Shown here piece after piece: positions 17,291-58,897 of a DNA stretch of 58,897 bases. Origin of the DNA: a virus. Below the pieces are notes generated by a model. The model was not told the DNA's origin. It did not search any database and worked only from the letters and a program-made list of their open reading frames with translations. Positions within the stretch are counted from its first letter, which is position 1. Each line of letters begins with the position of its first letter. The stretch covers positions 1-58,897 of the IMG/VR virus record IMGVR_UViG_3300021376_000063; one strand, given 5' to 3'. A program made the translations under genes and the position numbers.

Positions 17291-20200
17291 TTAAATCTCC
17301 ATCAAATACCAACCTTGTTGCTCTGCAGCAATTCCATTACCGTTAGAATCGGTATCACCAACATAAATTAAACCAAATGCTGCGTTTGGTGTATTGACAA
17401 CCAATTCACCGCCATTGAAATTGCTAGCACCACCAAGGCTGCTACCTTGACTACTACCTTGTATTCTGGTGTTAGATCCAGATTGTACTCTAATTACTAA
17501 GTTAACCGCAAAATTCAATGCTCCCCCAACATCAACAATTCTAACAGTATCACCAGTCACGGCATTTGCAGGCAACTTCAATACTAAAGTTGATGATGGT
17601 CTTACTAAGTATTGTAGATTAGCTTCCAAATTAATAGCAGTAGAATCTGTATTTCCTTGAGTAGAAATGAAGATAGTCTTTCTTCCACCATTCTTATTGT
17701 AGAAATTCTCATGACCGAAAGCTTCTATAGAAGCATCTTGTCTAATTCTAAATGGTTTTTCTGCGTTGTCACCCAAATTATTAATCGACAACACATTAGA
17801 AGATGCAGAAGCACTATTGGTATAAGTGCCATGTAAAGTAAGGGTAGCACCTGTATTTACACTTATCAGAGGTCTTCCGATTACTGTGGATCCAGTTTGA
17901 GCATCAACCGAGAAGCGAGAGGTAAAGATATTAGATCCATCTTCTGTTATAGAAGAATTCGCTAGTGTGCCAACTGTAAAATCATCACCAACTCTAAGAG
18001 TGCCTGCAATCTTAGTATTTCCGCTTGCGCCCAATACCTCAAAAGCTAAATTATTTGCACTGTCTGCTCTAGATTTATCAAAAGATCCTGACGTAAAGAA
18101 TCCGTCTTTAAATATTTTAATATTTCCGCCATTGTAAATAGATGTGTTTCCTGTAGCAGATTCGACATAGAATTTAGGAATACTTCCATTAGTAATAACA
18201 AAATACTGTTTACCAGGAGTTGTGGTAGTAGAATTTCCACTCAATTCAATGGAGTTATGTACTTTTAAGTTACCACCACCAGAAGTTTCAAAAGTATTTC
18301 CAGTTGAAGTGCTAGAAGGATATCCTTTATCATCAGCAACTCTTTGGGTATTTTCAACATCAAGACTTGGTTGATTTACATCATAACCAATAACAACATC
18401 ACCAATAATCTGTGTGTCTCCAGTAGTAGAAATAGTTCTGAATACTCTCTGAGCTTCTCTCGGTATTGCAGTAGTGCCAATGTTACCATCATTGATAGTG
18501 AAACTTTGAGCGGCAGCTGGATTTACTTGATTTACTCTTACATATTCACCACCAACATTTAAACTTTGCTTATTGAGTCTTAGTAAATCATTAACTGTTA
18601 CATTTGCAGAGAATTCTGCGAGATTAAGAGCGGTGTCAGTACCACTGAGAGGACTTGGTGTGATATATGAAGCATTTTGTTGCTCCACTAATCTATAAAT
18701 TCTTTCTCCATCTGGATGAGAAACTTGTGCTGTTCCTCTTTGTCCTCTCTCAACTTCAACTGTGTATGGAACTGGACTATTCGGAACATAAGGTGTTGGG
18801 AATCCAACTGTCCTTACAATTTCCACTCCAATCAGATACAATTGATTAATACCAATTCCAGTTGGATTGCTTAGTGGTAGAGACCAATATTGATTACCAT
18901 CAACAACTCTTGTTTTGAAAGTATCATCTCCCCATGGAGTATCACCTTGAGTATCAATAACAATAGATTGCAATTGAACTCTAGCAGTTCCAGCATCAGT
19001 AAATCCTGTTTGTAAAGATACAACTACTGGATTATCGGATGAATCTTTTAACGTAAAACCAACTGCATCTCTACTTAAAATATAATATGTTGTTGATGTA
19101 GAAAGTCCCGTTAAATTACCAACATCAATAAATTTAACGGCATCATTTTCACTAAACCAATGCGAGGAAGTTACAATAATTTTATTTGCCACTACTGTTT
19201 GTAGATTGACAATACCATCAAAATTAGGAATTACTGCAAAGTAATCAATATTCAAATTATCCAAATCACCAGTTGATTGGGTTTGACCACTTGTAGTGAT
19301 TATAGATCCAGTAGCAGGAGTTGTAATAATAGATGGAGATACATTTGCATATGTAAATGTAGTTGCATCAACCACAGTAATTGAAACTGTAGAAATAGTG
19401 CTGAAACTTGGTATGGAGCAAACAACTTTTACTAGAGCACCAGTGGCTAAATTATGTGGAGTTGATGTTACGATAGTAGCGGTATTAGAAGATCTAGAAA
19501 CTGTAGAAATTCTAAGTAAACCAAAGATATTTCTATCAATACCCAAATTATTATTTTTCAATCCACCATTTTGGGTAATGTCAGATTCAAAGAATGAAGA
19601 TCCCAATACATTCAAACCATTTCTAATTCTAGTCGTGCCAGCGACACCACCTAATGTAAGTGTTCCAACACTCAAACCAATGTTTAGTGTAGTAACACCA
19701 GTTGGGAATAATGTAAATTCTTGACTTAATGATGTAGTATTGATTTCACCGCCATTGATAGTTAATGTACCATCTAGAATTGTTCTATAATTTTTAACTT
19801 GTAGAGTGCTTTGACCTCTATTTGCATATGCACCACCAATTGTAATTTGTGATACATTTGATGTTGCTGTATTATTTACAGTTCCAACATTAATAATCGA
19901 ATTATTGCTGTTGGTGTGAATATCAAGGGTAGTAGATCCTGTTACGGAAGTTCCAATATCAATATTTTGTGTGGTAGTTGTTGAATTACCAATAGCAATG
20001 TTTTGTGCAAATCCACTTAATACAAGAGAAGTCGTCGTGTTTTGATTAGCAATATTGAATGTAGGAGCAGTAGAGCGAATATCACCACCATTTACATCAA
20101 TATCAGACTGGAATGTAAAGTCTCCAGTTATTCTTGCATCACCAGAAACAACAAAGTTTCTATCAAGTGCAGCATCTGAAACATTAATACCTACTCTACC

Positions 20201-23200
20201 ATTGTCACTATCGGCGGTTGGTCCTACTACACGACCAGCTTCAGATAAAGTGCTAGTTGCAATTCTAAATTCAGCAGTAGAATCTGGATTTGCACTGTCA
20301 CCACCGACAATGAAGGCATGTCTAGTTGTAAGAGGAACTCCTCCTTGTAAATCAGAGAAATTAGTTTGCTTTCTGCCACTTATAAATGCATTACCAACTA
20401 CATCCAAGTTTGCTCTTGGTGTAGTTTGTGAGGTAATGTAAGAAACAACATAATCAGTAGATAATGCTCTAGCTAGGGTATTAATACCTACTTTATAATC
20501 ACCGTAAGTTTCGGTTTCTGTGCGAATAGACTCAGATCCAATAACTCCAACTTCTTTCCACTGAGACTGAGAAATTGCGATTTCCAGAGTTGGTTGTGTT
20601 ATAATCGAAGTAGCATAAACATATGGTGGATTACCTGTTAATGTAGTTTCAGATGCTCTAGTTGTTAAGAGATAAACATATCCATTAGATTCAGAATACT
20701 CATATCCTTCCGAAGAATTATCATATACTGTGTGGACACCATTGATAGTTGTGAATCTATCAATGCCACCAGTAATCTTAATTTGAGATGACCTAGTAAT
20801 TCCTAAAGATGCACCAGGATTTGAAGAGCTAAAGTTAACTTTTCCTACTTGGAAAATTAACTTAATGACGTTGAGATTTGGATAGAATTGAATACCGATG
20901 ATATCAATCGAAGATTCCTGACCTGCAGGAGCATTCAATCTGTAAGGCAGATAAGAGTTTGCATAAACCCAACCTAAAGATCCAGAATAACCAACTTCAC
21001 CACCCTTGAATAGGACATCACCAGAAAGAGGAACAGTAGACCCAAAGGATAAAGTTTGTGAAGAATTAAATCGCGTCTTAGGACCAGTTGTGAACTGATT
21101 TGGTGTTATATTAGTTACTGAGGTTCTGAAAGTATATCTTTGAGTGCCTCTAGGATTCATGTCAAAGATAGCTGCTCTTGCTCTATTCTTGTCGAGAATA
21201 ATATCGCCAGCTCTTGTAGTATCAAGTAGAGGATCATCATCACCTGGAAGTAATGCCTGTCTATCACCAGGACGGGAAACAATCCTGATAGAAGGAGGCG
21301 TCATTATTGCTTCAAATTCTGGGTCAACATTGACCACAATTGGGGAATTGAAGAAGTTTGTTAGATTTGGAGGAGCATTTAATGTAATGATATTTTCAAA
21401 TGTTACGGGATCTTCAAATACCGTAACGAGACTTCCAAACTGCCCATCTTCTGCTTTTTCCTCATCGAGAATTAGAGCATCTAAGAATTCTTCCTCGCCA
21501 GTAATAGCATTAATCTTACGATTACCGATATACAATTCGCCATTAGAGTTAATACCAGTATAGAATACGATACCAGCATCTTGTCTCTTAGATTGTGCAT
21601 AGTAGTCTTCTACCGCACTGAGGATAACAGTCTGTCTAGCAGGGAAACCAGTTGAGTAGTTACCAGGACCGAAACCTAGATATTCAAACGTGTGGTTACC
21701 TGCACGAGCAATCGATGGTCTACGCAATTCAACATAAAGTTTTTGCTCTAGTGGGAATGAAGAATCACCTGCAATAGGAATTAATCTTTCTTCGGCACCA
21801 GAAGATGCAGCTCCAGAAAGTGCTTTTAGTTGATTTACGCCAGTAAACTCATATTGACCAGAACCAGGATTCTTAATAAAATCAATAACTGCTTCTTTGG
21901 TAATAGAATTTTTGGCATCGTTGATAGTAACTAAACCATGAATATAGTTGTCAGCAGCACAAACAGATGCTGGTGGGTCAACTATGTTAGTATTCTGACT
22001 TCCACCTTGTCCATCGCTACCATCATACTGGAATAGTAGTGGATCGTTTTTGTATGTTAATGGATATAGTCTAGAAACTGGCTGACTAAACTTAAAGTTT
22101 CTGAAGTTGATACCAACTCCAGATCCAGTAGGATATGGAGAAATATCACCTCTTACACAAGTTAAGTAGTAAACACCATCTTGCTGTCTAGGAATTCTTC
22201 TCTGAACTTCTTCAATATCGTAAATATAGTATGTTTCACTTAAATCATCAACATCTTCCACACTAACAACTCTATATTGTCTAGCAGCATCGTCAGTAAT
22301 TACATCACCAGGAGTTACTGTATAAACATTAGAAGCTTCTACAGCATAAAGATATTCTGATTTATCTTCTTTACCGAAGTTTGGTCTCGAAAGCAATTCA
22401 GCAGTAACATCTGGTTGTCCATCAATTCTCTGACGGAAGAATGTTTGTGTCTTCTCGTCAAAGTCAATCTGTCCTTCAACTGCACGAAGAATTAGATAAT
22501 TAAACTCTTCCAATCCACCTTCGACTGGCTCAGAACCAAACCAAGAATGCACAATTGCGCTTCCTTGATACTCACCATACCAAGTAATTCTAGTGCCAGG
22601 AATAAATTCGCCGTTACCACCCTGAGGTTGTCCTACTTTTACAGTAACAAATCTTTCTGCCTTGAGAGATTCTACGTCAATTCCATGGTCAAATACAACC
22701 ATTTCTAGGTAATTATTTACAATCTTAGCAGATTGAATCGTAAATGATACATTTGATTCAGTATTGGTGCCTGCAATTCTCTTGGCAAAAATGGGATTGT
22801 AAGGGTCATACTGTGTGCTAGCACCAGCAATACCTAGACGCTCTCTTGGAGATGGACCTTCTTCAAAGAAAGTTGCATCTTTCTGGTCATTTGCAGAAAC
22901 TGGCTTGAGAAGAATTCTTTGTGGGACTAGTTTTCTCTTTTCGTCAGTTCTAATCTTAATTACAAATCCACTGAGAGGATCTCTTACATCGTCTCTATAA
23001 TTAGGAATTACATAGCGTAGTTTGTAAACCTTATCCTCTTTCTTTCTGGTATCATCTGCTCTATAGAAGAAAGAATCTGGAGTGCGGGGTGGTTTATTTA
23101 CATATAGACTTCCTCTTGAAGCATCAGATAAAGTAAGTCTATCATAAATTTCATTACCCTGAAGTAAAGTCTTCAAGAACCAACCATTCTGCACTGGGTC

Positions 23201-26200
23201 ATATCCTAGAGGACTTCTCTTTTTAGTAGCTAATACATAGAATGACTGACCGCTTGGATAGTTGAACTGCACCGCATTTTGCTTGTTAATAGCATCCTGT
23301 ACGGTTAGATAGATAGAAAACTGATTGTTAGAGGTATAAGTAGCTGGGCGTCCAACAAAATAAGTTCTATTAATTTCCAATCTATTGCCATTTGTCTTAG
23401 ATGGTAATGTCTCAAGTGCAGTGCCAGTTGGAGCTCCATTAACAAGATTTTCTTCCAGAGGATAGAAGAATACTTGCTGCACTTGAACTCCACTAATAGC
23501 AGTATCAAAAATGTGGTTAGTTGTTGTTTGGAATACTCTCGAACTTACAAGAGAGCAGGTATAGCGATGTAGGTTATAATCTACGTCCGTCATATACTGA
23601 TGGACTTCAATCTGCACATCTGGGTCAATAGAATTAGTCTCAGATGAATAAATGTAGTTACCAGCAGCAGCATTTTCAACGCTTGTGGCAAGCATGAAAG
23701 TTTGCGAATCATTAAACTGTGATGTTGCTCCACCTGCAGAGTAATCAAATGGCGAAGTAATTTTACCAGGAGCAATCACATAATACTTAGTATTACTATC
23801 AAAACCTTTCGGTAATCTAATTAAACGCTTATCCATATTCACTGGTTGTCCAGTGAATGGATCTTTCTTAGCGACTGGGACTAGTTTCACTGGAGTGCCA
23901 GTTTCTAGATTGTGTGGATTGTTACCAGCAACACGGAAAATAGTTGCTCTTTGTGCAAAGGATGCAGTATTAACTAATTGCGATACAAGTGGCTCTGCAT
24001 CAATTCCATTGCGAATAACACTCTCGATTACACGCATTTTTTCAACAATAGCATCTTTTGTTGATGCACACTTGTTGCTAGAATTATCTACAGTAATGCT
24101 AATATCTTTTTCTGGTTTAGTTCTCTCAGTATACTCATCTGTGCCATATGTTTTTGGTGGCAGAGGAGCAGTATTCGTCAAAGCACCAATTAGAATATCA
24201 AATTCTGTGCTTATAGTATAAGCAACATCTGCACAGACTGGCACCCCAGCAGTGGTCGTGTCAATGCTTAAATCTGTTTGAGGAAGCAGGACGGTGTTTG
24301 GAAGCTTCTGATATGAAGGATCAGAAAAGGTGCCATCACCTGTCTTCCAATTACGCATTGCAAGAATAGCAAGATCTCTTGCTTTCTTGTAAGCATAAAC
24401 ACTCATATCTAACTCACCCTCTAGTGAGATAGCCCCACCATTATAGCTAAGAGGTGGTAAAATAAATGCACTATTGTTTAATTTTTGAATGATAATACCA
24501 AACAAACTATCAATAGTGTTTCTCACATCCAAGCAAGAGTTTGGATTATTATTTGGAATATCAGGACCGACTACTCCTAGTTGTGCTGGTCCTTCAGAGA
24601 TTTCAAAATCTCTTACATTCAGTTGATTAGTAACCGCTTTGAAACAGAGATCTCTAGCCGCAGTAAAAGCAGTAATAGATTGTGGAATTTCTCCTGCTAG
24701 TCCATTATTAATTAGAGTGTTGCCAGTGCTATCAAAATAGGATTTGGTTGCTCTAATAATGTTAGAGTTTCCACCTAAAGCTAGATCTTCTGCGATAGCA
24801 TCTACAATGTAACCAATATCGCGCTTACACTTAGCTTGGAATTCAGGTGCGCTACCATAGTTAATTTGAGGAAGTGCTGGATTTTGCTGAGTAGCAGTTA
24901 CTAAATCTCCCTGACGAATTCTAGCAAAGATTAACTGTGATAGAGTATCAATCGTCTGCTGCACATTAGTGCAAGACTGAGAATCAGTGTTGTTATCTGT
25001 AACACCAGGAGTGCCAAAGTCACTAACACCAGATTGTGTAGATCCTGGTAGTGGGTCTCCAGTGATTCCAAGATCTTTAACTGTTAACTGGTTGGTGATT
25101 GCCTTCTTCATTTCGGCAATCGCTGCATTATATGCAAAGATTGATTGTGTCTCTTCTCCCTGGAGACCGTTTTGAATCCAGGCTTGCTCTGCTGTAGAAA
25201 CAGTGATTACAATATCATCTGCTACGTTGACACCACCAATTGTAGATCCTAAAATTCTAAGTGTGTTTCCAGAGGCATACTTATATCCACCATTTACGAT
25301 TGTTACAGCACTAATTGCACCAGAAGAATTTCTAGTTACTGTAAATGTGGCACCCACACCATCACTAGTTGTGGTAGTTGCTACACCAGTATAAACTCTA
25401 TTTGGTTTGCTAGCAAGAGTAGTGCCATTATTTCTAGTAAACGTAAGAATCTTGCCATTTACCTTATCTTCTAAGAAATATTGACGAATGAAATCAATAG
25501 AGTATGAATTCCCGAGTGTAGTTAAATCTGTAGAAATAGCATCTACAAAATGACCAATATCACGCTTACACTTATTCTCTAAATCATCTGGTTGAGGATT
25601 TGGAAGACCATTAAGAATTAGAGCATTATATGCATTATTAATAATTTCAGCTCTATTTTGCTGAATTAGTCTGTAAGAATCTTTGTATCTAGAATATACA
25701 TTAGTTCTATCATCACCACCATTAGTAAATCCACTTCCACCATAATAAAAATCTGGATAATCGATAGCAAGTTTTGCAGATGCTTTATCAATAATTTCTC
25801 TTCTATTTGCAAGAATTAAATCTTTAGCATCGAAGTAGCGACTTGAAGCACCAACATACTTCTCCGCAGCAGTAACCATTCCAGAGTTACCAGTAGAAGC
25901 AAGGTCTTCTACTAGTGCATCCAAGACAAACTTAATATCACGCTTGCAAGTATCACTGCTTGGTACAGTTACAGCAGGATACTGTAGTTTTGCTAAATTG
26001 AGAGCTTCCTCAGCAATAAATTCTTTATTTAACTTAATTAAAGTACCTGCATCGAATGCTCTACCAGAAGATGATGCAAACTTACCTTGATTTAGACTGA
26101 AGTTTAAAGTGATACCACCTGATGTTGGACCAGATGCAACAATGGTCGCTAAAGCATTTACTAGCTCAGTATCATTTCTATTACCGAGTTTAAATTGAGT

Positions 26201-28660
26201 GGTGCTAACTATCTCTGCTACATATGTACCTGCGGGAATTGGATTAGTTTGACCAGTTGCTGGTGTAGCAGTAACTACCATTCCTTCAACAATACCAATT
26301 GTGGTAATGCCATTTGGTACACTTACCGTAGATTGTCCACTAAATGTGCTGCAATTTTGAATTCGGAATTCCCAATTACGCATTGCCGCAACAGCAAGAC
26401 TTCTAGCATAGTTAAATGCATCTAAGGTCTCTTCTTTTTCTGTCTCAATGTAATCTAGTTGATTGCCAGTGTAGTATGCTTGTGCTGCTTGAATGCTGTT
26501 GACATTGCCACCAACACGTAAATCGTTTGCAACTGCTTCAAGAATATAACCAACATCTCTCCTACACTTATTGATGCTGATTTCTCTTGTTAGCAGATAT
26601 GGGAACTTTCTAGTAATGTATCCATAAGTCTCTGCCGCAATGAAATCTCTATTTAAATCTAGAAGATTTGCCGCATCCTGGTCATTATTTGAAACTCCAG
26701 TCACAATATTAGGACTTAAGATAGAAAGAGCTACATCCCACTTTCTGTAACCAGATGGAGAGATTTCCGCTTGACGAATCGACCCAGTAAAACCAGTAGC
26801 AGGGTCTAGTTTAACATAGATTTTCTCATGTGCTCTTGCGCCCAATCTAAAGCCGTTAACTGTAGTAGCTGGTTTCTGTAATGGATCAGAAGATTCATCA
26901 TTTGCCAAATACAATCTAACGAGATTAGATGGACCACTATTATCTAAAGCATTAGAATTTCTAGTTTTGATTTGATTGAAAGTAAAATACTGATACTTCT
27001 TAGTTGTAGTAGTTACTTTTCTAGGTGGAACGATGTGCGAAATATATCCGCCTTGGTCTTGAGCAAAGGAATAACCTTTGTAACCGATAGCATGTAGCGA
27101 AGTATTACCAAAGTTTGAGTTTGAGTTGGTGATCGACATGTCACCACCAGACTCCATGAGGAAGTGGTCAGCAAAACCTACAGCGAAGATAGAAACGTTT
27201 TGGATGAATGCGTCATTCGATGCCTTAACGTGGAAGTTTCTCCAATCATCCTTCCAATATGCATCACCTTTAGTGTGATAGGGAGTTGTAGCAAACGCAT
27301 CAGTGAGAGGTGCCTGATTCCAGGTATTACTAAATTCATCATAACGAATAAACGCACGATCATCTCTCTGTAGCGATACACCCGTATACTGGGCGATAAC
27401 CATCGATTTGAAACCACTGGCCTTGCTACCATCAGCGTGAATGCCGCAGATACCCCACGTAGAGCGGATAGAGACGTTGAAAACGTATGGCGAGGCAGAT
27501 TCCACAGAATCAACTTCTGCCTGCGTAATGGCGTTTGTATCGAGCGTAGGTGGCGTAATTGGTTGACCGATTCTATCACCAAGACCTACGGCAGCAGCAT
27601 TCTTTCCTTCTACACGATATGTAAATTCTTTTGAATCAGAAATACTGATTTCTCTTACAGCAAAAACACCAGTTAGGGGGTCATTTGCTAGAGGAATTGT
27701 TTCGGTTGCTCCAGCTGGAAGTGTTGAGCGTAGATTTGCTACGGCAATTGCTTGTCCTACATAGTAACCATGATTTGTTTTTGTTTTGACAGTAACATCG
27801 AGAGCTGTAGTGCCAGGGACATTATTGACTTCGATAGAATCGATACGAATAGCATCCTGGAGAGGACCAACAATTCTGTTTTCCTGAGGTCTTTGCTCAA
27901 ATTCACCTGGATCATCAATAGTTGGTTGAAACAGAGAGAATGCCTTAGCAATCTTTCTGTAAAGTAGTCCCAAATCTTCTCTACTTGCAAATTCAAAGTT
28001 GCAAATTTTGTGGTGAGAATAATATGGAATAGTGGTGATAGTGGAGTTTGGTTGTGAATATACTTTACCAATTCCCTCTTGCACATCATAAAGAGGTGAA
28101 TTTTTCTCAACATCACCATCAAGAATAGTAAACTGCCAGAAATAGCATCCACCAGTTACGTTGAAAAGAGTTGTGCGACCGACATCTTTATCAGCAGGAT
28201 CTGGTACATAAAGAGGATGTAGACGAGTTCTACGAAGGTCCATACCAACGAGTGAGGTGCCTCTAGGAATAGTAGCACCACCTTTAGGACCGTTAAACTT
28301 ATAGAGAATGTTATTAGGATTGCCAAGATCAACGATGGATTCATCTTCCCACTCGTCAGTAGCTTGATTGAATGCAAAAGGAACAATCTCCTCTGGATTC
28401 ATGATACCTGGGCGGTTATCAATATAGTGATTACCAGGAGATAGCATGATCGTAAATTGATCAAAGCGATCATTCTCCTTACCAGGAACATACGAATATC
28501 GAGCAACTTCAAGGAATGCTCTCTGAATTGTGAGGAAAGGACGGGTTGGGGAGTTGCCTCTATTGTCTAAAGCGTCAGAAGCGTTAAAGTCGTCAGGTGA
28601 AACATATAGATATCTTCCAGTTTTGCTGGAAATTAAATTCTCTAGTTTGGTTAATGGCAT
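17291..28660 (-). CDS. Giant virion structural protein (3789 aa)
   Basis: The N-terminus (LISSKTGRYLYVSPDDFNAS, then PTRPFLTIQRAFLEVARYSY) resembles the opening of pectate-lyase-like beta-helix proteins. Four copies of a C-K/R-R-D-I/V module lie at about residues 696, 904, 1030 and 1277. They alternate with modules built on C-x-x-V-x-x-T-I-D. After about residue 2500 the sequence is Gly/Ser/Thr/Asn-rich and repetitive, as in fibres. Very long proteins of this type, sometimes annotated VrlC-like, are typical of cyanomyovirus tail regions. The likely role is a long tail or side fibre. A late promoter lies 44 bases before the ATG. Confidence 0.8.
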   Translation of the reverse strand: MPLTKLENLISSKTGRYLYVSPDDFNASDALDNRGNSPTRPFLTIQRAFLEVARYSYVPGKENDRFDQFTIMLSPGNHYIDNRPGIMNPEEIVPFAFNQATDEWEDESIVDLGNPNNILYKFNGPKGGATIPRGTSLVGMDLRRTRLHPLYVPDPADKDVGRTTLFNVTGGCYFWQFTILDGDVEKNSPLYDVQEGIGKVYSQPNSTITTIPYYSHHKICNFEFASREDLGLLYRKIAKAFSLFQPTIDDPGEFEQRPQENRIVGPLQDAIRIDSIEVNNVPGTTALDVTVKTKTNHGYYVGQAIAVANLRSTLPAGATETIPLANDPLTGVFAVREISISDSKEFTYRVEGKNAAAVGLGDRIGQPITPPTLDTNAITQAEVDSVESASPYVFNVSIRSTWGICGIHADGSKASGFKSMVIAQYTGVSLQRDDRAFIRYDEFSNTWNQAPLTDAFATTPYHTKGDAYWKDDWRNFHVKASNDAFIQNVSIFAVGFADHFLMESGGDMSITNSNSNFGNTSLHAIGYKGYSFAQDQGGYISHIVPPRKVTTTTKKYQYFTFNQIKTRNSNALDNSGPSNLVRLYLANDESSDPLQKPATTVNGFRLGARAHEKIYVKLDPATGFTGSIRQAEISPSGYRKWDVALSILSPNIVTGVSNNDQDAANLLDLNRDFIAAETYGYITRKFPYLLTREISINKCRRDVGYILEAVANDLRVGGNVNSIQAAQAYYTGNQLDYIETEKEETLDAFNYARSLAVAAMRNWEFRIQNCSTFSGQSTVSVPNGITTIGIVEGMVVTATPATGQTNPIPAGTYVAEIVSTTQFKLGNRNDTELVNALATIVASGPTSGGITLNFSLNQGKFASSSGRAFDAGTLIKLNKEFIAEEALNLAKLQYPAVTVPSSDTCKRDIKFVLDALVEDLASTGNSGMVTAAEKYVGASSRYFDAKDLILANRREIIDKASAKLAIDYPDFYYGGSGFTNGGDDRTNVYSRYKDSYRLIQQNRAEIINNAYNALILNGLPNPQPDDLENKCKRDIGHFVDAISTDLTTLGNSYSIDFIRQYFLEDKVNGKILTFTRNNGTTLASKPNRVYTGVATTTTSDGVGATFTVTRNSSGAISAVTIVNGGYKYASGNTLRILGSTIGGVNVADDIVITVSTAEQAWIQNGLQGEETQSIFAYNAAIAEMKKAITNQLTVKDLGITGDPLPGSTQSGVSDFGTPGVTDNNTDSQSCTNVQQTIDTLSQLIFARIRQGDLVTATQQNPALPQINYGSAPEFQAKCKRDIGYIVDAIAEDLALGGNSNIIRATKSYFDSTGNTLINNGLAGEIPQSITAFTAARDLCFKAVTNQLNVRDFEISEGPAQLGVVGPDIPNNNPNSCLDVRNTIDSLFGIIIQKLNNSAFILPPLSYNGGAISLEGELDMSVYAYKKARDLAILAMRNWKTGDGTFSDPSYQKLPNTVLLPQTDLSIDTTTAGVPVCADVAYTISTEFDILIGALTNTAPLPPKTYGTDEYTERTKPEKDISITVDNSSNKCASTKDAIVEKMRVIESVIRNGIDAEPLVSQLVNTASFAQRATIFRVAGNNPHNLETGTPVKLVPVAKKDPFTGQPVNMDKRLIRLPKGFDSNTKYYVIAPGKITSPFDYSAGGATSQFNDSQTFMLATSVENAAAGNYIYSSETNSIDPDVQIEVHQYMTDVDYNLHRYTCSLVSSRVFQTTTNHIFDTAISGVQVQQVFFYPLEENLVNGAPTGTALETLPSKTNGNRLEINRTYFVGRPATYTSNNQFSIYLTVQDAINKQNAVQFNYPSGQSFYVLATKKRSPLGYDPVQNGWFLKTLLQGNEIYDRLTLSDASRGSLYVNKPPRTPDSFFYRADDTRKKEDKVYKLRYVIPNYRDDVRDPLSGFVIKIRTDEKRKLVPQRILLKPVSANDQKDATFFEEGPSPRERLGIAGASTQYDPYNPIFAKRIAGTNTESNVSFTIQSAKIVNNYLEMVVFDHGIDVESLKAERFVTVKVGQPQGGNGEFIPGTRITWYGEYQGSAIVHSWFGSEPVEGGLEEFNYLILRAVEGQIDFDEKTQTFFRQRIDGQPDVTAELLSRPNFGKEDKSEYLYAVEASNVYTVTPGDVITDDAARQYRVVSVEDVDDLSETYYIYDIEEVQRRIPRQQDGVYYLTCVRGDISPYPTGSGVGINFRNFKFSQPVSRLYPLTYKNDPLLFQYDGSDGQGGSQNTNIVDPPASVCAADNYIHGLVTINDAKNSITKEAVIDFIKNPGSGQYEFTGVNQLKALSGAASSGAEERLIPIAGDSSFPLEQKLYVELRRPSIARAGNHTFEYLGFGPGNYSTGFPARQTVILSAVEDYYAQSKRQDAGIVFYTGINSNGELYIGNRKINAITGEEEFLDALILDEEKAEDGQFGSLVTVFEDPVTFENIITLNAPPNLTNFFNSPIVVNVDPEFEAIMTPPSIRIVSRPGDRQALLPGDDDPLLDTTRAGDIILDKNRARAAIFDMNPRGTQRYTFRTSVTNITPNQFTTGPKTRFNSSQTLSFGSTVPLSGDVLFKGGEVGYSGSLGWVYANSYLPYRLNAPAGQESSIDIIGIQFYPNLNVIKLIFQVGKVNFSSSNPGASLGITRSSQIKITGGIDRFTTINGVHTVYDNSSEGYEYSESNGYVYLLTTRASETTLTGNPPYVYATSIITQPTLEIAISQSQWKEVGVIGSESIRTETETYGDYKVGINTLARALSTDYVVSYITSQTTPRANLDVVGNAFISGRKQTNFSDLQGGVPLTTRHAFIVGGDSANPDSTAEFRIATSTLSEAGRVVGPTADSDNGRVGINVSDAALDRNFVVSGDARITGDFTFQSDIDVNGGDIRSTAPTFNIANQNTTTSLVLSGFAQNIAIGNSTTTTQNIDIGTSVTGSTTLDIHTNSNNSIINVGTVNNTATSNVSQITIGGAYANRGQSTLQVKNYRTILDGTLTINGGEINTTSLSQEFTLFPTGVTTLNIGLSVGTLTLGGVAGTTRIRNGLNVLGSSFFESDITQNGGLKNNNLGIDRNIFGLLRISTVSRSSNTATIVTSTPHNLATGALVKVVCSIPSFSTISTVSITVVDATTFTYANVSPSIITTPATGSIITTSGQTQSTGDLDNLNIDYFAVIPNFDGIVNLQTVVANKIIVTSSHWFSENDAVKFIDVGNLTGLSTSTTYYILSRDAVGFTLKDSSDNPVVVSLQTGFTDAGTARVQLQSIVIDTQGDTPWGDDTFKTRVVDGNQYWSLPLSNPTGIGINQLYLIGVEIVRTVGFPTPYVPNSPVPYTVEVERGQRGTAQVSHPDGERIYRLVEQQNASYITPSPLSGTDTALNLAEFSANVTVNDLLRLNKQSLNVGGEYVRVNQVNPAAAQSFTINDGNIGTTAIPREAQRVFRTISTTGDTQIIGDVVIGYDVNQPSLDVENTQRVADDKGYPSSTSTGNTFETSGGGNLKVHNSIELSGNSTTTTPGKQYFVITNGSIPKFYVESATGNTSIYNGGNIKIFKDGFFTSGSFDKSRADSANNLAFEVLGASGNTKIAGTLRVGDDFTVGTLANSSITEDGSNIFTSRFSVDAQTGSTVIGRPLISVNTGATLTLHGTYTNSASASSNVLSINNLGDNAEKPFRIRQDASIEAFGHENFYNKNGGRKTIFISTQGNTDSTAINLEANLQYLVRPSSTLVLKLPANAVTGDTVRIVDVGGALNFAVNLVIRVQSGSNTRIQGSSQGSSLGGASNFNGGELVVNTPNAAFGLIYVGDTDSNGNGIAAEQQGWYLMEI

Positions 28661-28762: not shown

Positions 28763-28834
28763 AGCCTAATGTCAGACTTGAACTGACGACCGCTCGCTTA
28801 CAAGGCGAGTGCTCTACCACTGAGCTAATCAGGC
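28763..28834 (-). tRNA. tRNA-Thr(UGU)
   Basis: The minus strand folds into a full cloverleaf. The acceptor is GCCTGAT/ATTAGGC with one G-U pair, and the D arm contains AGCTCAGTGGTAGAGC. The anticodon stem is CTCGC/GCGAG around loop CTTGTAA (anticodon UGU), and the T loop is TTCAAGT. The discriminator base is included and no CCA is encoded. It probably supports ACA codons, which are frequent in the AT-rich late genes. Confidence 0.93.
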
Positions 28835-28835
28835 A

Positions 28836-29102
28836 CTAGTCATCTTTAGGAAGTAGCTCTGGATTGTCTATTTCTACTTCAAACATCAGCGGATGCATTT
28901 CTTCCATTACAAGATAATTGGAAATTTTAAACAAATCTTCGTCATCATAATCACGATGATTTAATGCTTCTGTTTGTACAGCAGGGTGGTCTTGTATAAT
29001 CTGAGGTAATTCATCAAATGTATATGGAAGACCTTGGATGAAATACATCCTCACAACTTGTCCCATATAGAAACAATATGCTTGTGATAATGTGTATTTC
29101 AT
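28836..29102 (-). CDS. Hypothetical acidic protein between two tRNAs (88 aa)
   Basis: An 88-residue acidic protein begins MKYTLSQAYCFYMGQVVRMY and ends PELLPKDD. It ends one base from the tRNA-Thr gene and starts 32 bases after the tRNA-Leu gene, so all are probably processed from one transcript. Function unknown. Confidence 0.65.
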   Translation of the reverse strand: MKYTLSQAYCFYMGQVVRMYFIQGLPYTFDELPQIIQDHPAVQTEALNHRDYDDEDLFKISNYLVMEEMHPLMFEVEIDNPELLPKDD

Positions 29103-29134
29103 AACATTCCCACTACAATGTATTTAGCGGGAAA

Positions 29135-29218
29135 TAGGGCGAGGGAGACTTGAACTCCCACGGGCATAAGCCCAACAGATTTTAAGTCTGGTGTGTCTAC
29201 CGATTCCACCACCGCCCC
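29135..29218 (-). tRNA. tRNA-Leu(UAA)
   Basis: This is a class II tRNA of 84 bases. The acceptor GGGGCGG pairs with TCGCCCT (two G-U pairs) and the D arm contains GGAATCGGTAGAC. The anticodon loop CTTAAAA has anticodon UAA, a long variable arm is built around GGGC/GCCC, and the T loop is TTCAAGT. No CCA is encoded. It decodes UUA, an AT-rich codon favoured by the phage. Confidence 0.93.
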
Positions 29219-29224
29219 ATAAAA

Positions 29225-55152: not shown

Positions 55153-55404
55153 TTATTTTTTGGGTGGGTCAACTAATCCTTTTTCTAAAAATAGTTTAGC
55201 AGTCTCTACGAGACCACCGATCTCTTCTCCATTTATAATTACATAAGGATATCCATTAGCTTTTGGAAACTTTTGCTGAAACAATTGAAAATTAATGTCT
55301 CTTCCAACTGTTACTTCTGTATAATTAACCAATGCTCTCTTAAAAAGTTTTTTAAGTGTGGTGCAATGACTGCATCCTGGGTTTGTATAAGCAACAATTT
55401 CCAT
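55153..55404 (-). CDS. grx: Glutaredoxin
   Basis: The redox motif CSHC lies at residues 11-14 after VAYTNPG. NGYPYVIINGEEIGGLVETA carries the cis-Pro and GG of the thioredoxin fold. The length of 83 aa is normal. It probably supplies electrons to ribonucleotide reductase. It shares one base with speD. Confidence 0.9.
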   Translation of the reverse strand: MEIVAYTNPGCSHCTTLKKLFKRALVNYTEVTVGRDINFQLFQQKFPKANGYPYVIINGEEIGGLVETAKLFLEKGLVDPPKK

Positions 55405-55754
55405 TAGATTCCTCTATAAATGACGGTGAATATTGGATGTTTAGATTCTAGCATGTCTGCCATAAATCTGCAAGCAACATCTGGATTGGTATGATTGCCA
55501 CAGGTAAAGATATCTACAGCAGCATAACTTTTCTCAGGCCATGTATGAATACTGATATGACTTTCCGATAGCAGACAAACAGCAGTGATTCCCTGTGGCG
55601 TGAATTCATATTTAACTTCTTCAATCAACGTTGCGTTAGCATGTTCTACTGCTTGCCTAAGGGAAGTGCTAATAAATTCTGAGTTGTTTAAAAGGTCTGC
55701 ATTACATTCACACAACTCAGCGATGTGATGCACACCAAGCACTTCATTAACCAT
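55404..55754 (-). CDS. speD: S-adenosylmethionine decarboxylase SpeD
   Basis: The proenzyme self-cleavage site is in LSESHISIHTWPE, where the Ser after Glu becomes the pyruvoyl cofactor. Residues YAAVDIFTCGNH carry the catalytic Cys. It makes decarboxylated AdoMet for spermidine synthesis. The ATG at 55754 is used, with GGAG about ten bases upstream; a TTG precedes it. This is a common cyanophage auxiliary gene. Confidence 0.93.
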   Translation of the reverse strand: MVNEVLGVHHIAELCECNADLLNNSEFISTSLRQAVEHANATLIEEVKYEFTPQGITAVCLLSESHISIHTWPEKSYAAVDIFTCGNHTNPDVACRFMADMLESKHPIFTVIYRGI

Positions 55755-55778
55755 CAATGTATCTCCAATGTCGTTGAG

Positions 55779-55791: not shown

Positions 55792-55813
55792 AAAAAAGGG
55801 GGATTGCTCCCCC
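55792..55813 (-). terminator. psbA terminator
   Basis: GGGGG (55813..55809), loop AGCAAT, CCCCC (55802..55798), then six T. It is an intrinsic terminator about 25 bases after the psbA stop. Confidence 0.9.
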
Positions 55814-55837: not shown

Positions 55838-56920
55838 TCAACCGATTGCAGGTGCAGTGAGTGCCACAGGGGTCATCTCAGCAGCAGCAAGATCGAGTGG
55901 GAAGTTGTGAGCGTTGCGCTCGTGCATCACTTCCATACCAAGACCACCACGATTCAGAATATCTGCCCAAGTGTTGATAACATGACCCTGACTATCTTGG
56001 ATAGACTGGTTAAAGTTAAAACCATTCAGATTGAATGCCATGGTGCTAACGCCAAGAGCAGTAAACCAGATACCGACTACAGGCCAAGCAGCAAGGAAGA
56101 AGTGCAGCGAGCGTGAGTTATTGAAGGAAGCGTATTGGAAAATAAGACGACCGAAATAACCGTGTGCAGCTACAATGTTGTAGGTTTCTTCTTCTTGTCC
56201 GAACTTGTAACCATAGTTTTGTGACTCATTCTCTGTGGTTTCACGCACGAGGGAACTTGTGACCAAAGATCCATGCATAGCAGAGAAAAGAGAACCGCCA
56301 AATACACCAGCCACCCCAAGCATATGGAAGGGGTGCATGAGGATATTATGCTCCGCCTGGAAAACAAGCATGTAGTTAAATGTTCCACTAATGCCGAGCG
56401 GCATAGCATCAGAGAAGGAACCTTGTCCAAAGGGATACACGAGGAAAACTGCAGAAGCAGCAGCAACGGGTGCGCTGTAGGCAACACAAATCCAAGGACG
56501 CATACCCAGTCGGTAAGAGAGTTCCCATTCACGACCCATGTAAGCATAGATACCGATCAGAAAGTGGAAGACGACCAGTTGAAATGGTCCACCATTATAT
56601 AGCCACTCGTCGAGAGAGGCTGCTTCCCAGATGGGATAGAAGTGCAGTCCAATAGCATTGGACGATGGGACAACAGCACCAGAGATGATGTTGTTTCCCC
56701 ACATGAGCGAGCCAGCGACGGGCTCACGGATGCCGTCAATATCCACGGGGGGTGCGGCGATGAAGGCGACGATGAAGCAGATGGTTGCTGCAAGCAGGGT
56801 GGGAATCATAAGAGTTCCAAACCAACCGACATACAAACGATTGTCGGTAGAGGTAACCCACTCGCAGAAGTTTTGCCAAATGTTTTCACCACCGCGACGT
56901 GTTGCGATAGTTGCAGTCAT
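55838..56920 (-). CDS. psbA: Photosystem II D1 protein PsbA
   Basis: Full-length D1 of 360 residues with the expected five transmembrane helices. His in [13 protein letters not shown] and the [16 protein letters not shown] region are conserved. The C-terminal [13 protein letters not shown] contains the site trimmed to mature D1. Residue 131 (130 in standard numbering) is Glu, the high-light form. There is no intron. Expression replaces photodamaged D1 so that photosynthesis powers phage replication. Upstream are both an early-type and a late-type promoter and a 5' hairpin. Confidence 0.98.
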
Positions 56921-56951
56921 TGAAAATACTCCGAGTAGTTGAGAAAGTATT

Positions 56952-56977
56952 GTTAAGGAATGTTTCGTTTCCTTAAC
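56952..56977 (-). promoter_or_regulatory. Hairpin in psbA 5' leader
   Basis: The perfect 9-bp inverted repeat GTTAAGGAA/TTCCTTAAC (56952-56960 with 56969-56977) has an 8-base loop. It lies between promoter and ATG, on the psbA leader. It could control RNA stability or ribosome access. Confidence 0.65.
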
Positions 56978-56980
56978 ATT

Positions 56981-57014
56981 TATTTATAGTAGCACGGGTT
57001 ACCGAACCTGTCAA
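56981..57014 (-). promoter_or_regulatory. psbA dual promoter (sigma70-like plus late box)
   Basis: TTGACA (57014..57009), 17 bases ending GTGC, then TACTAT (56991..56986). The perfect late box TATAAATA (56988..56981) overlaps the -10. psbA could therefore be transcribed both early and late. Confidence 0.8.
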
Positions 57015-57033
57015 GCCCCCTAGGCAGACCATT

Positions 57034-57050
57034 TATAAATAACATAAATA
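57034..57050 (+). promoter_or_regulatory. Tandem late promoters for the fibre gene
   Basis: TATAAATA (57034-57041) and CATAAATA (57043-57050) lie 22-31 bases before the ATG at 57073. They give rightward late expression, divergent from psbA. Confidence 0.7.
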
Positions 57051-57072
57051 GAAACCTTTTTGCGTTCGTGTA

Positions 57073-58897
57073 ATGGCAAACCGCTTCCCTTTGATTGTCA
57101 ATCCTGACACTAAAGAAATTCAAGAATTAAAAGCTAATGACAACTTAGACTTAACTGGCAATGGTATATACGCTGGTGGATCTCTAGGATTGAATGGTCA
57201 AGTTTTGGCGAGTAATGGCAATACTGTGGAATGGAGGACTGTTTCTGGTGGTGGGGGAGGAGGTGGAGGTCTAGATTTAGACACCACCTATATTATAGAA
57301 GCAGAAAATGCTGACGACGGTGCTACTTTAAATCTAGTAGCAGGAGGAACTGGAGTTGGAACTATCAAGGTTAAATTTTTAGATAATGCACAGTTAGAAT
57401 ATAACGTTGCCAATAATTTAACTTTCACCAGCTCAATCAAAACTGGTAGCATAACAAATAATTTATTAACAAACTCATCTATTAGCGTTAATATTAACGG
57501 AGTATCTCAATCAGTTCCTCTTGGTGGCAGCGTAACTATTCCACAATACGGAAATGTATTCACAACTGCCACCCAAACTATAACAAACAAAACATTTAAT
57601 AACTGTCTATTATCAGGAGCAACTAATTCATTTTCTCTAATTCCAAATAGTGCTTTAGTTAATAGCTCCATCACAATTAACGGTACTCAGGTTTCTCTAG
57701 GTGGCAGCATCAATATTGTAGGTGGTGGCAGTGGAGTAGATACCAACACTACATACACACTATCATCAGTTGATGGAGATACTGCTAGCAAAAAAGTAAT
57801 ACGCCTAACAGGTAGCGATACCAGCACTACAAATGTCACACTAGTATCTGGAAATGGAATTTCATTAACTAGATCTTCCAATGAAATAACCATTTCAAAT
57901 ACACTAACCGACACAAATACAACTTATAGTGTATCTTCAGACACACTATTATCTAATGGCAATGCTGTTGGAGCAAGAGTAAATCTTGTAGGCGGTGGCA
58001 GCGGCAGTGGAAATGGAATCACTGATAGAATTAACTTGAGAAATGGCACAGGAGTTGTAGTTTCTTCCACAAGTGACAGTGATATTTCGTTTTCTATTGG
58101 TCAAAGCGTTAACACAACTTCAAATGTAACTTTCAATGACCTAACATTGACTGGAAGTTTATCTGTTGCTGGCGCACTAACTTATGTCAACACCACAAAT
58201 TTAGTCGTAACAGATAAGACTATTACTATCGCTGATGGTGTTACTAACTCTACCTTAGCAAATGGGGCTGGCATTCTCCTAGGCACTTCAAATATTAATT
58301 TAACTTATAGTCATGACTCTGCAGCTTGGGAGTCAACTGCACACTTTAATCTAGTGCCAACCAAAACATTTAAAATTGGTGGCACTAGTGTATTAACTGC
58401 CACCCAAGTATTAGGCAAATCAATGCCAACTGGCAATGTGGTAGGCACTATAGATACCCAATCGTTGAGTAATAAAACTCTCGTCAATCCTGTAGTATCA
58501 TCAATCATTAATACTGGCACAGTGTATTTCCCTGCGCCAAACATTGCAGATACTCTAGTTGCTAGAAATACTTCTGACATTCTAACCAACAAAACTATTA
58601 GTGGAAGCACCAATACTATTTCAAATATTGGAAACTCATCACTAACTAATAGCAGTATCACAATTAATGGCACAACTGTTGCGTTAGGAGAAACAATATC
58701 TGTCACCGCTACAGATCCATATAGTGACGAAAAAGCACAAGATGCTGTCGCAGGAAGTTTTACAACTGGAGTGCATACTGGAATTAGTTTTTCTTATGAT
58801 GATACTACAGGAAAAATTAATGCCACTGTAACTGGCGGCGGTAGTGGGGTTGCCCAAATTCAATCGGATTGGACGCAAACTAACACAGCATCTCTTG
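57073..58897 (+). CDS. Tail-fibre-like structural protein, partial (608+ aa)
   Basis: Open through the right edge without a stop. It begins MANRFPLIVNPDTKEIQELK, then DNLDLTGNGIYAGGSLGLNG. I recall this start from cyanomyovirus fibre-like proteins. A short poly-Gly run (about residues 59-66) acts as a hinge. Repeated units such as SSITINGTQVSLGGSI, SSISVNINGV with VPLGGSV, and SSITINGTTVALGETI suggest a beta-structured fibre shaft. Tandem late promoters precede it. It has no clear ribosome site. Confidence 0.8.
   Translation, partial: MANRFPLIVNPDTKEIQELKANDNLDLTGNGIYAGGSLGLNGQVLASNGNTVEWRTVSGGGGGGGGLDLDTTYIIEAENADDGATLNLVAGGTGVGTIKVKFLDNAQLEYNVANNLTFTSSIKTGSITNNLLTNSSISVNINGVSQSVPLGGSVTIPQYGNVFTTATQTITNKTFNNCLLSGATNSFSLIPNSALVNSSITINGTQVSLGGSINIVGGGSGVDTNTTYTLSSVDGDTASKKVIRLTGSDTSTTNVTLVSGNGISLTRSSNEITISNTLTDTNTTYSVSSDTLLSNGNAVGARVNLVGGGSGSGNGITDRINLRNGTGVVVSSTSDSDISFSIGQSVNTTSNVTFNDLTLTGSLSVAGALTYVNTTNLVVTDKTITIADGVTNSTLANGAGILLGTSNINLTYSHDSAAWESTAHFNLVPTKTFKIGGTSVLTATQVLGKSMPTGNVVGTIDTQSLSNKTLVNPVVSSIINTGTVYFPAPNIADTLVARNTSDILTNKTISGSTNTISNIGNSSLTNSSITINGTTVALGETISVTATDPYSDEKAQDAVAGSFTTGVHTGISFSYDDTTGKINATVTGGGSGVAQIQSDWTQTNTASL

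Follow-up and report, generated by a model that had tools for sequence, protein, structure and literature searches.

The current view is that phage-encoded psbA maintains photosystem II repair in the infected cell, so the means by which its mRNA stays available from the early to the late phase matter for phage yield in the ocean. The locus analysed here raises the question of how a phage might keep psbA transcribed, and its mRNA intact, across the switch from early to late gene expression. It lies in IMG/VR record IMGVR_UViG_3300021376_000063, a virus record of 58,897 bases that is a fragment and was analysed at its full length (hereafter the window); its gene content is that of a T4-like cyanophage. 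A speD-like S-adenosylmethionine decarboxylase gene (55404-55757, minus strand) comes directly after psbA and its terminator-like hairpin. The largest open reading frame (ORF) of the window codes for 3789 amino acids (17291-28660, minus strand), with genes for tRNA-Thr and tRNA-Leu just upstream (28763-29219). Among 23 distinct ORFs scanned beyond the first 43 kb of this fragment, several of them without any named match, no match named as a late sigma factor was found.

An earlier note on this DNA had claimed that the early -10 hexamer of psbA overlaps a perfect late promoter box, and all the elements were found in place on the minus strand (Table 1). The sigma-70-type promoter scored 10 of 12 consensus matches in the promoter scan. 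Its layout, TTGACA-17-TACTAT, is that of the dual promoters of cyanomyoviral psbA genes (a TTGACA-like -35 and a -10 with a 16-18 nt spacer), and the gp55-type late box that such promoters carry within the -10 motif is present as well. The early start was predicted from sigma-70 promoter geometry. The late box fits the T4-type form (T/N)ATAAATA, which is read by gp55 with a start ∼6 nt past its end, and the late start was predicted from the position reported for the T4 box relative to the start (PMC1524935).

Table 1. Features of the psbA control region and its surroundings (coordinates of the window).
Feature	Position	Strand	Details	Basis
-35 hexamer TTGACA	57009..57014	-	sigma-70-type (early) promoter	sequence, promoter scan
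-10 hexamer TACTAT	56986..56991	-	preceded by TGC (extended -10); 17-nt spacer	sequence, promoter scan
T4-type late promoter box TATAAATA	56981..56988	-	perfect; 3 bases in common with the -10	sequence
Predicted early start (+1)	56979	-	7 nt past the last -10 base	inferred from geometry
Predicted late start	56975	-	box at -13 to -6	inferred from geometry
Leader hairpin, at predicted 5′ end	56951..56978	-	10 perfect pairs, 56978-56969 with 56960-56951; loop 56968-56961	sequence, fold
Shine-Dalgarno-like GGAG	56929..56932	-	8 nt ahead of ATG	sequence
psbA, photosystem II D1 protein	55838..56920	-	360 amino acids, uninterrupted	phrog_182, 8.8e-200; PF00124
Terminator-like hairpin and T run	55798..55813	-	directly past psbA	consensus scan only
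Divergent virion structural gene	start 57073	+		phrog_6002
Late box TATAAATA	57034..57041	+	upstream of the divergent structural gene, outside the psbA leader	sequence

Taken one at a time, the promoter elements are unremarkable in window DNA: the psbA region has 9 promoter-like sites where shuffles predict 9.7, and the window contains TATAAATA 3 times against an expectation of 6.5, which is no enrichment. What is rare is the combination. The strict composite, TTGAC-N18/19-TANNATAAATA, has a single site in the window. In 12 phage records, namely the window and 11 isolate genomes already seen to carry the composite at psbA, it has 14 sites, 10 of which are at psbA (in the window and 9 isolates), and the reversed control pattern has no site in any of the 12. 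Since the isolates were preselected for a psbA composite, this search is informative mainly for rarity elsewhere, that is, for the 4 sites that are not at psbA; one of these is near psbD in S-PM2, and each of the remaining three precedes a small gene in a phage of its own. Syn19 and S-SCSM1, which lack a strict psbA site, carry there the variant box ACTAAATA, which resembles the CTAAATA late element reported in phage Aeh1 (PMC1524935).

The S-PM2 (AJ630128) site, at 137766-137799, lies 20 nt before psbD (start 137820) and is accompanied by no strong hairpin (z -0.1). The second early/late composite of the three cyanophages (L561, 447-480; L562, 447-480; L563, 426-459) precedes a gene annotated as a DUF680-domain protein, as an outer membrane autotransporter barrel or as hypothetical, and the 60 nt after it fold into a predicted hairpin, a prediction with no shuffle comparison behind it. 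Among the matches listed for the composite pattern, psbA stood behind the composite at 28 of 119 loci; the other 91 sites, from phages of any kind, gave a median fold of -6.2 kcal/mol, which serves as a rough comparison.

It is conceivable that a single promoter is in use and that the other match reflects how far TATAAT and TATAAATA resemble each other where DNA is rich in A and T; the two consensus sequences do have letters in common. The psbA leaders of P-TIM40 and P-SSM7 apparently have the sigma-70 half only (by eye), and in P-HM2, a Prochlorococcus phage outside our leader comparison, the auxiliary metabolic genes, psbA included, are described as belonging to the middle transcript cluster alone (PMC5082946). 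However, S-PM2 and Syn9 together have 39 late boxes between genes, and a correctly spaced -35 with at least five matches was found only at psbA and near psbD; we regard the single-promoter explanation as unlikely.

The same composite recurs at psbA in other phages, which supports the earlier note in its claim of overlapping early and late promoters. Loci were gathered by psbA similarity, from the matches listed for the hairpin pattern and for the composite promoter pattern, and by the GGAG region, and frequencies are given for the contigs found by psbA similarity (L001-L080) and for isolates. From the best 80 of 599 psbA relatives on viral contigs, the psbA start was available in 71 and 200 nt upstream of it in 69, which gave 66 distinct leaders; 48 of these carry the composite. 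It is also present in 11 of 19 isolates, or in 7 of 15 without the four (L429-L432: S-CREM1, S-PM2, SynMITS9220M01 and DSL-LC02) that were chosen after matching the window leader. A larger contig set, which includes loci chosen by the features themselves, has it in 110 of 128 leaders. The register is partly fixed by the search patterns, which required TTGAC or TTGAT and allowed a spacer of 16-18; with that reservation, and with some leaders chosen for the feature, TTGACA was found in 99 of 121 composite leaders, and the spacer was 17 in 116 and 18 in 5. None of 80 leaders from cellular genome contigs has the composite (these were the best 80 of 587; they span many cyanobacterial groups, marine Synechococcus being sparsely represented, and two are labelled as non-cyanobacterial MAGs), and a host origin of the control region was rejected on this count.

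All 11 composite-positive isolates are Kyanoviridae records named Synechococcus phages. The composite is absent from S-CRM01, S-TIM61, ACG-2014f, P-TIM40, P-RSM1, P-SSM7 and the podoviruses P-SSP7 and KBS-P-1A, and these 8 of the 19 isolates include all three Prochlorococcus myoviruses tested. P-RSM1 has a late box and a -10 with no matching -35. The 18 contig leaders (of 66) without the composite comprise 4 that look PhotoRC-II-like by eye (L014, L054, L072, L073) and 14 that do not; L014 has a late box and TTGACG, but in another register. On L011, L032, L038, L043 and L060, psbA has no such promoter module, and the upstream sequences are alike and coding-looking by eye; these contigs perhaps belong to a different phage type.

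Downstream of the promoters, the earlier note had seen a perfect 9-bp hairpin in the leader. The hairpin is indeed perfect, but its length is 10 bp. The arms, TGTTAAGGAA and TTCCTTAACA, pair without mismatch around an 8-nt loop, ACGAAACA. The leader as a whole (56900-56980) folds with -14.9 kcal/mol (z = -3.1 relative to dinucleotide shuffles). If the predicted starts are right, the early transcript would begin one base ahead of the stem and the late one inside it, with the three outer pairs lost (from 10 to 7) and the 50-nt fold going from -11.2 to -7.8 kcal/mol, the latter value including a second helix further on. With these starts, the stem would lie within a few nt of the 5′ end and could be described as 5′-terminal. 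A tiny reading frame in the hairpin (ATG TTA AGG ... TAA, from 56979) was judged by eye not to be a conserved gene, since the frame is lost at other loop lengths (L156, L344, L034) and its stop follows from the palindrome.

The earlier note had made its case depend on conservation of the hairpin, and the stem-loop is kept. A stem-loop of at least 9 pairs that starts at most 5 nt from the predicted early +1 was found in 41 of 48 composite contig leaders, related leaders being treated as separate and not independent, versus 259 of 960 shuffles (27%). Among isolates, the figure was 5 of 7 for those chosen independently of the leader match (shuffles, 40 of 140) and 3 of 4 for the leader-matched ones; those without it were Syn9, S-RIM8 and DSL-LC02, in addition to 7 of the 48 contigs. 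The pooled hairpin counts (44/60; 50/60 versus 302/1200 shuffles) include the four leader-matched isolates and the window. In this pool of 60 the main stem-loop begins at an offset of 0 to 4 in 50 leaders and of 6 to 10 in 10. In a larger set, with loci chosen by the features themselves, the hairpin is present in 107 of 121. By fold energy, 35 of the 48 contig leaders rank at or below 3 of 60 shuffles. Intergenic late boxes upstream of ORFs, psbA included, served as a control: the mean z was -0.5 in S-PM2 (n = 24) and -0.1 in Syn9 (n = 15), and 2 of the 37 non-psbA boxes of the two phages also rank at or below 3 of 60. The psbA box of S-PM2 stands out (z -8.3), and in this phage a stem begins at the first base of either predicted transcript. 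The psbA hairpin of Syn9 is no better than shuffles (z -0.3 and -0.4).

An inverted repeat at the predicted start site of both promoters could also act as DNA, as an operator for a phage or host regulator. In one large group of leaders the half sites GTTAAGGAA/TTCCTTAAC show strong conservation, and most pairs hardly vary. Against an operator, other leaders have a stem at about the same place with an unrelated sequence (GTGAGGGTTTCCTCAC or GTAACGAA types), which a sequence-specific protein would not read, and the length of the stem is not constant (L013 has 7 pairs and S-PM2 has 20, for example). Because the stems differ so widely in sequence between leaders (GTTAAGGAA, GTGAGG, GTAACGAA and GTTTCGAATT types), RNA structure is favoured, and a DNA operator appears unlikely. 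Within the GTTAAG type, pairing reached 93.9% (shuffle maximum, 92.9%) and both-side changes numbered 16 (maximum, 13) in a comparison with 2000 shuffles that ignores kinship. Of 43 distinct hairpins, 42 entered this count (the one left out had under 6 pairs), and the count leans towards pairing because the search expression demands pyrimidines in the 3′ arm. Most pairs of this type are nearly invariant; one position goes from G-C to A-T via G-T.

What follows the hairpin differs between leaders. From late box to ATG the window leader is short (60 nt), as are 7 of the 48 composite contig leaders (60-82 nt); the other 41 have at least 145 nt. Of the 7 short leaders in the L001-L080 set, 4 have the Shine-Dalgarno-like element in the longer form CTCGGAG, as does S-CREM1, whereas S-PM2 does not. 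The structured RNA PhotoRC-II (RF01717; Weinberg et al. 2010, PMC2864571) is, like our hairpin, a leader element of cyanophage psbA, and was considered as the identity of the hairpin and rejected. In the window (56800-57150) it has no match at E ≤ 10, and thus none at the gathering cut-off of 39 bits; where it is present it sits further downstream, closer to the start codon. It lies between the hairpin and the gene in seven named long-leader phages (Syn9, S-RIM8, Syn19, S-SCSM1, Bellamy, SynMITS9220M01 and DSL-LC02). No match above the cut-off was found in the short-leader phages S-PM2, S-CREM1, S-SZBM1 and S-CAM3 or in the short-leader contigs L001, L004, L021, L034, L041, L046 and L062. Two composite-negative isolates, ACG-2014f and P-SSM7, also have PhotoRC-II. 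Short leaders without PhotoRC-II on the one hand, and these two isolates without the composite on the other, make the composite and hairpin separable from PhotoRC-II in both directions. In two cyanopodoviruses, glutamine-II riboswitch matches were observed ∼150-200 nt downstream of psbA (L446, 1942-1995; L447, 1874-1928).

The spacing of these elements bears on the suggestion, made in the earlier note, that translation may be tied to the RNA structure. One such reading would make the hairpin a light- or temperature-dependent switch governing ribosome access to psbA. When the full leader is folded, a further, weak helix (AAUACUU with GAGUAUU) covers part of GGAG, and psbA is reported as the one gene of S-PM2d that light changed proportionately (PMC5931967). 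Yet 18 nt separate the end of the hairpin from GGAG and 30 nt separate it from ATG, the second helix has no 5′ arm in L001 and L004 (by eye), and PhotoRC-II is placed between hairpin and start codon in the long-leader phages named above. With the stem clear of both GGAG and the start codon, and with PhotoRC-II intervening in many leaders, translation control is less likely; we consider such a switch quite unlikely, and the position of the hairpin points to mRNA stability instead.

The consensus scan listed the hairpin as terminator-like on both strands, so that a terminator or attenuator, or a plus-strand terminator that insulates the divergent structural gene, could be envisaged. The stem, however, has only 3 G-C pairs, and the tail on the psbA side is ATACTTTCTC. 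The hairpin is also kept where the upstream neighbour is co-directional (S-CREM1, SynMITS9220M01, S-SZBM1), and therefore the insulating of a divergent gene does not account for its presence in general. A role in termination is very improbable.

The overlap of the two promoters, their recurrence at psbA, their rarity elsewhere in the genomes searched and the conservation of the neighbouring hairpin can be read directly from the DNA. We consider it fairly probable that the dual promoter keeps psbA transcribed over the early-to-late switch while the hairpin protects the 5′ end of the mRNA. Host RNA polymerase with its main sigma factor would start psbA at the early promoter, at ∼56979. Once the phage late sigma factor (gp55 type) is made, transcription would start ∼4 nt downstream, at ∼56975, from the late box, which has bases in common with the early -10. 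Two overlapping promoters would thus keep psbA on across the switch with no middle activator, and it is plausible that D1 is made throughout infection, as the earlier note had supposed. A time course of S-PM2d infection showed more psbA transcript under high than under low light, with the largest difference late (PMC5931967). Two published results weigh against this reading: the middle-cluster placing of P-HM2 psbA, and the Q-PCR profiles of S-PM2 genes described below.

Both predicted transcripts would start at the hairpin, one base before it or just inside it, and would have at most about one unpaired 5′ base. A hairpin so placed would shield psbA mRNA from 5′-end-dependent decay of the RppH and RNase E type during infection. 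We prefer mRNA protection because of the position of the stem at the predicted 5′ end and because of a precedent in E. coli, where adding a hairpin at the 5′ end makes bla mRNA more stable and hinders RppH (PMC3997798). Such protection is not universal, since rpsO and T7-made lacZ mRNAs are described there as unaffected. It is known from E. coli and Bacillus, and is assumed by analogy for Synechococcus.

Whether the 5′ hairpin and the dual promoter together form a leader module that is general to psbA of T4-like cyanophages, and as yet without a name, appears evenly balanced. Such a module would be separable from PhotoRC-II, would have a stem that changes freely in sequence but holds its structure and its position at +1, and would occasionally occur at other genes. 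The promoter overlap gives a clean prediction of two starts ∼4 nt apart, and the hairpin a clean prediction of stability, both testable in laboratory phage/host pairs.

Both features have been described for S-PM2d by Puxty et al. (2018; PMC5931967), which makes the window a further example of a known arrangement and, by itself, one more case of a published design. These authors report that S-PM2d psbA retains motifs for early and late expression, a sigma-70 -35/-10 with a gp55 site in the same motif upstream of cyanomyoviral psbA, and that an inverted repeat forms a hairpin in the 5′-UTR with a possible role in mRNA stability. The window is like S-PM2d in both respects; the hairpin is described in that paper for S-PM2d. 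In contrast to the uninterrupted psbA and 10-pair stem of the window, S-PM2 has a 20-pair stem, a group I intron and the antisense RNA CfrI. In the open-licence literature we found neither the breadth of the 5′-terminal hairpin nor its occurrence ahead of PhotoRC-II in print, and its wide occurrence and presence in PhotoRC-II leaders are a modest extension of the published design.

The 5′ stabilising stem-loops of E. coli offer a second comparison. If the predicted starts are right, the window likewise has a stem-loop at the 5′ end with few unpaired bases; the hairpin appended to bla is the case treated in PMC3997798, and ompA and papA appear in its reference list. Unlike those mRNAs, that of the window belongs to a cyanobacterial host, and its stabilisation is putative. 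The third comparison is with the middle mode of RB49. Overlapping early and late promoters that replace middle promoters have been proposed for RB49, S-PM2 and Syn9, with NATAAATA as the form of the late box in S-PM2, and Q-PCR gave no middle profile for some S-PM2 genes of which one was expected (PMC2984593). As in that mode, which is described for phages without MotA and AsiA, psbA of the window has early sigma-70 and late gp55-type signals on one gene. Unlike in that mode, the two boxes of the window share bases, and most sites of the strict form in the 12 records (10 of 14) are at psbA.
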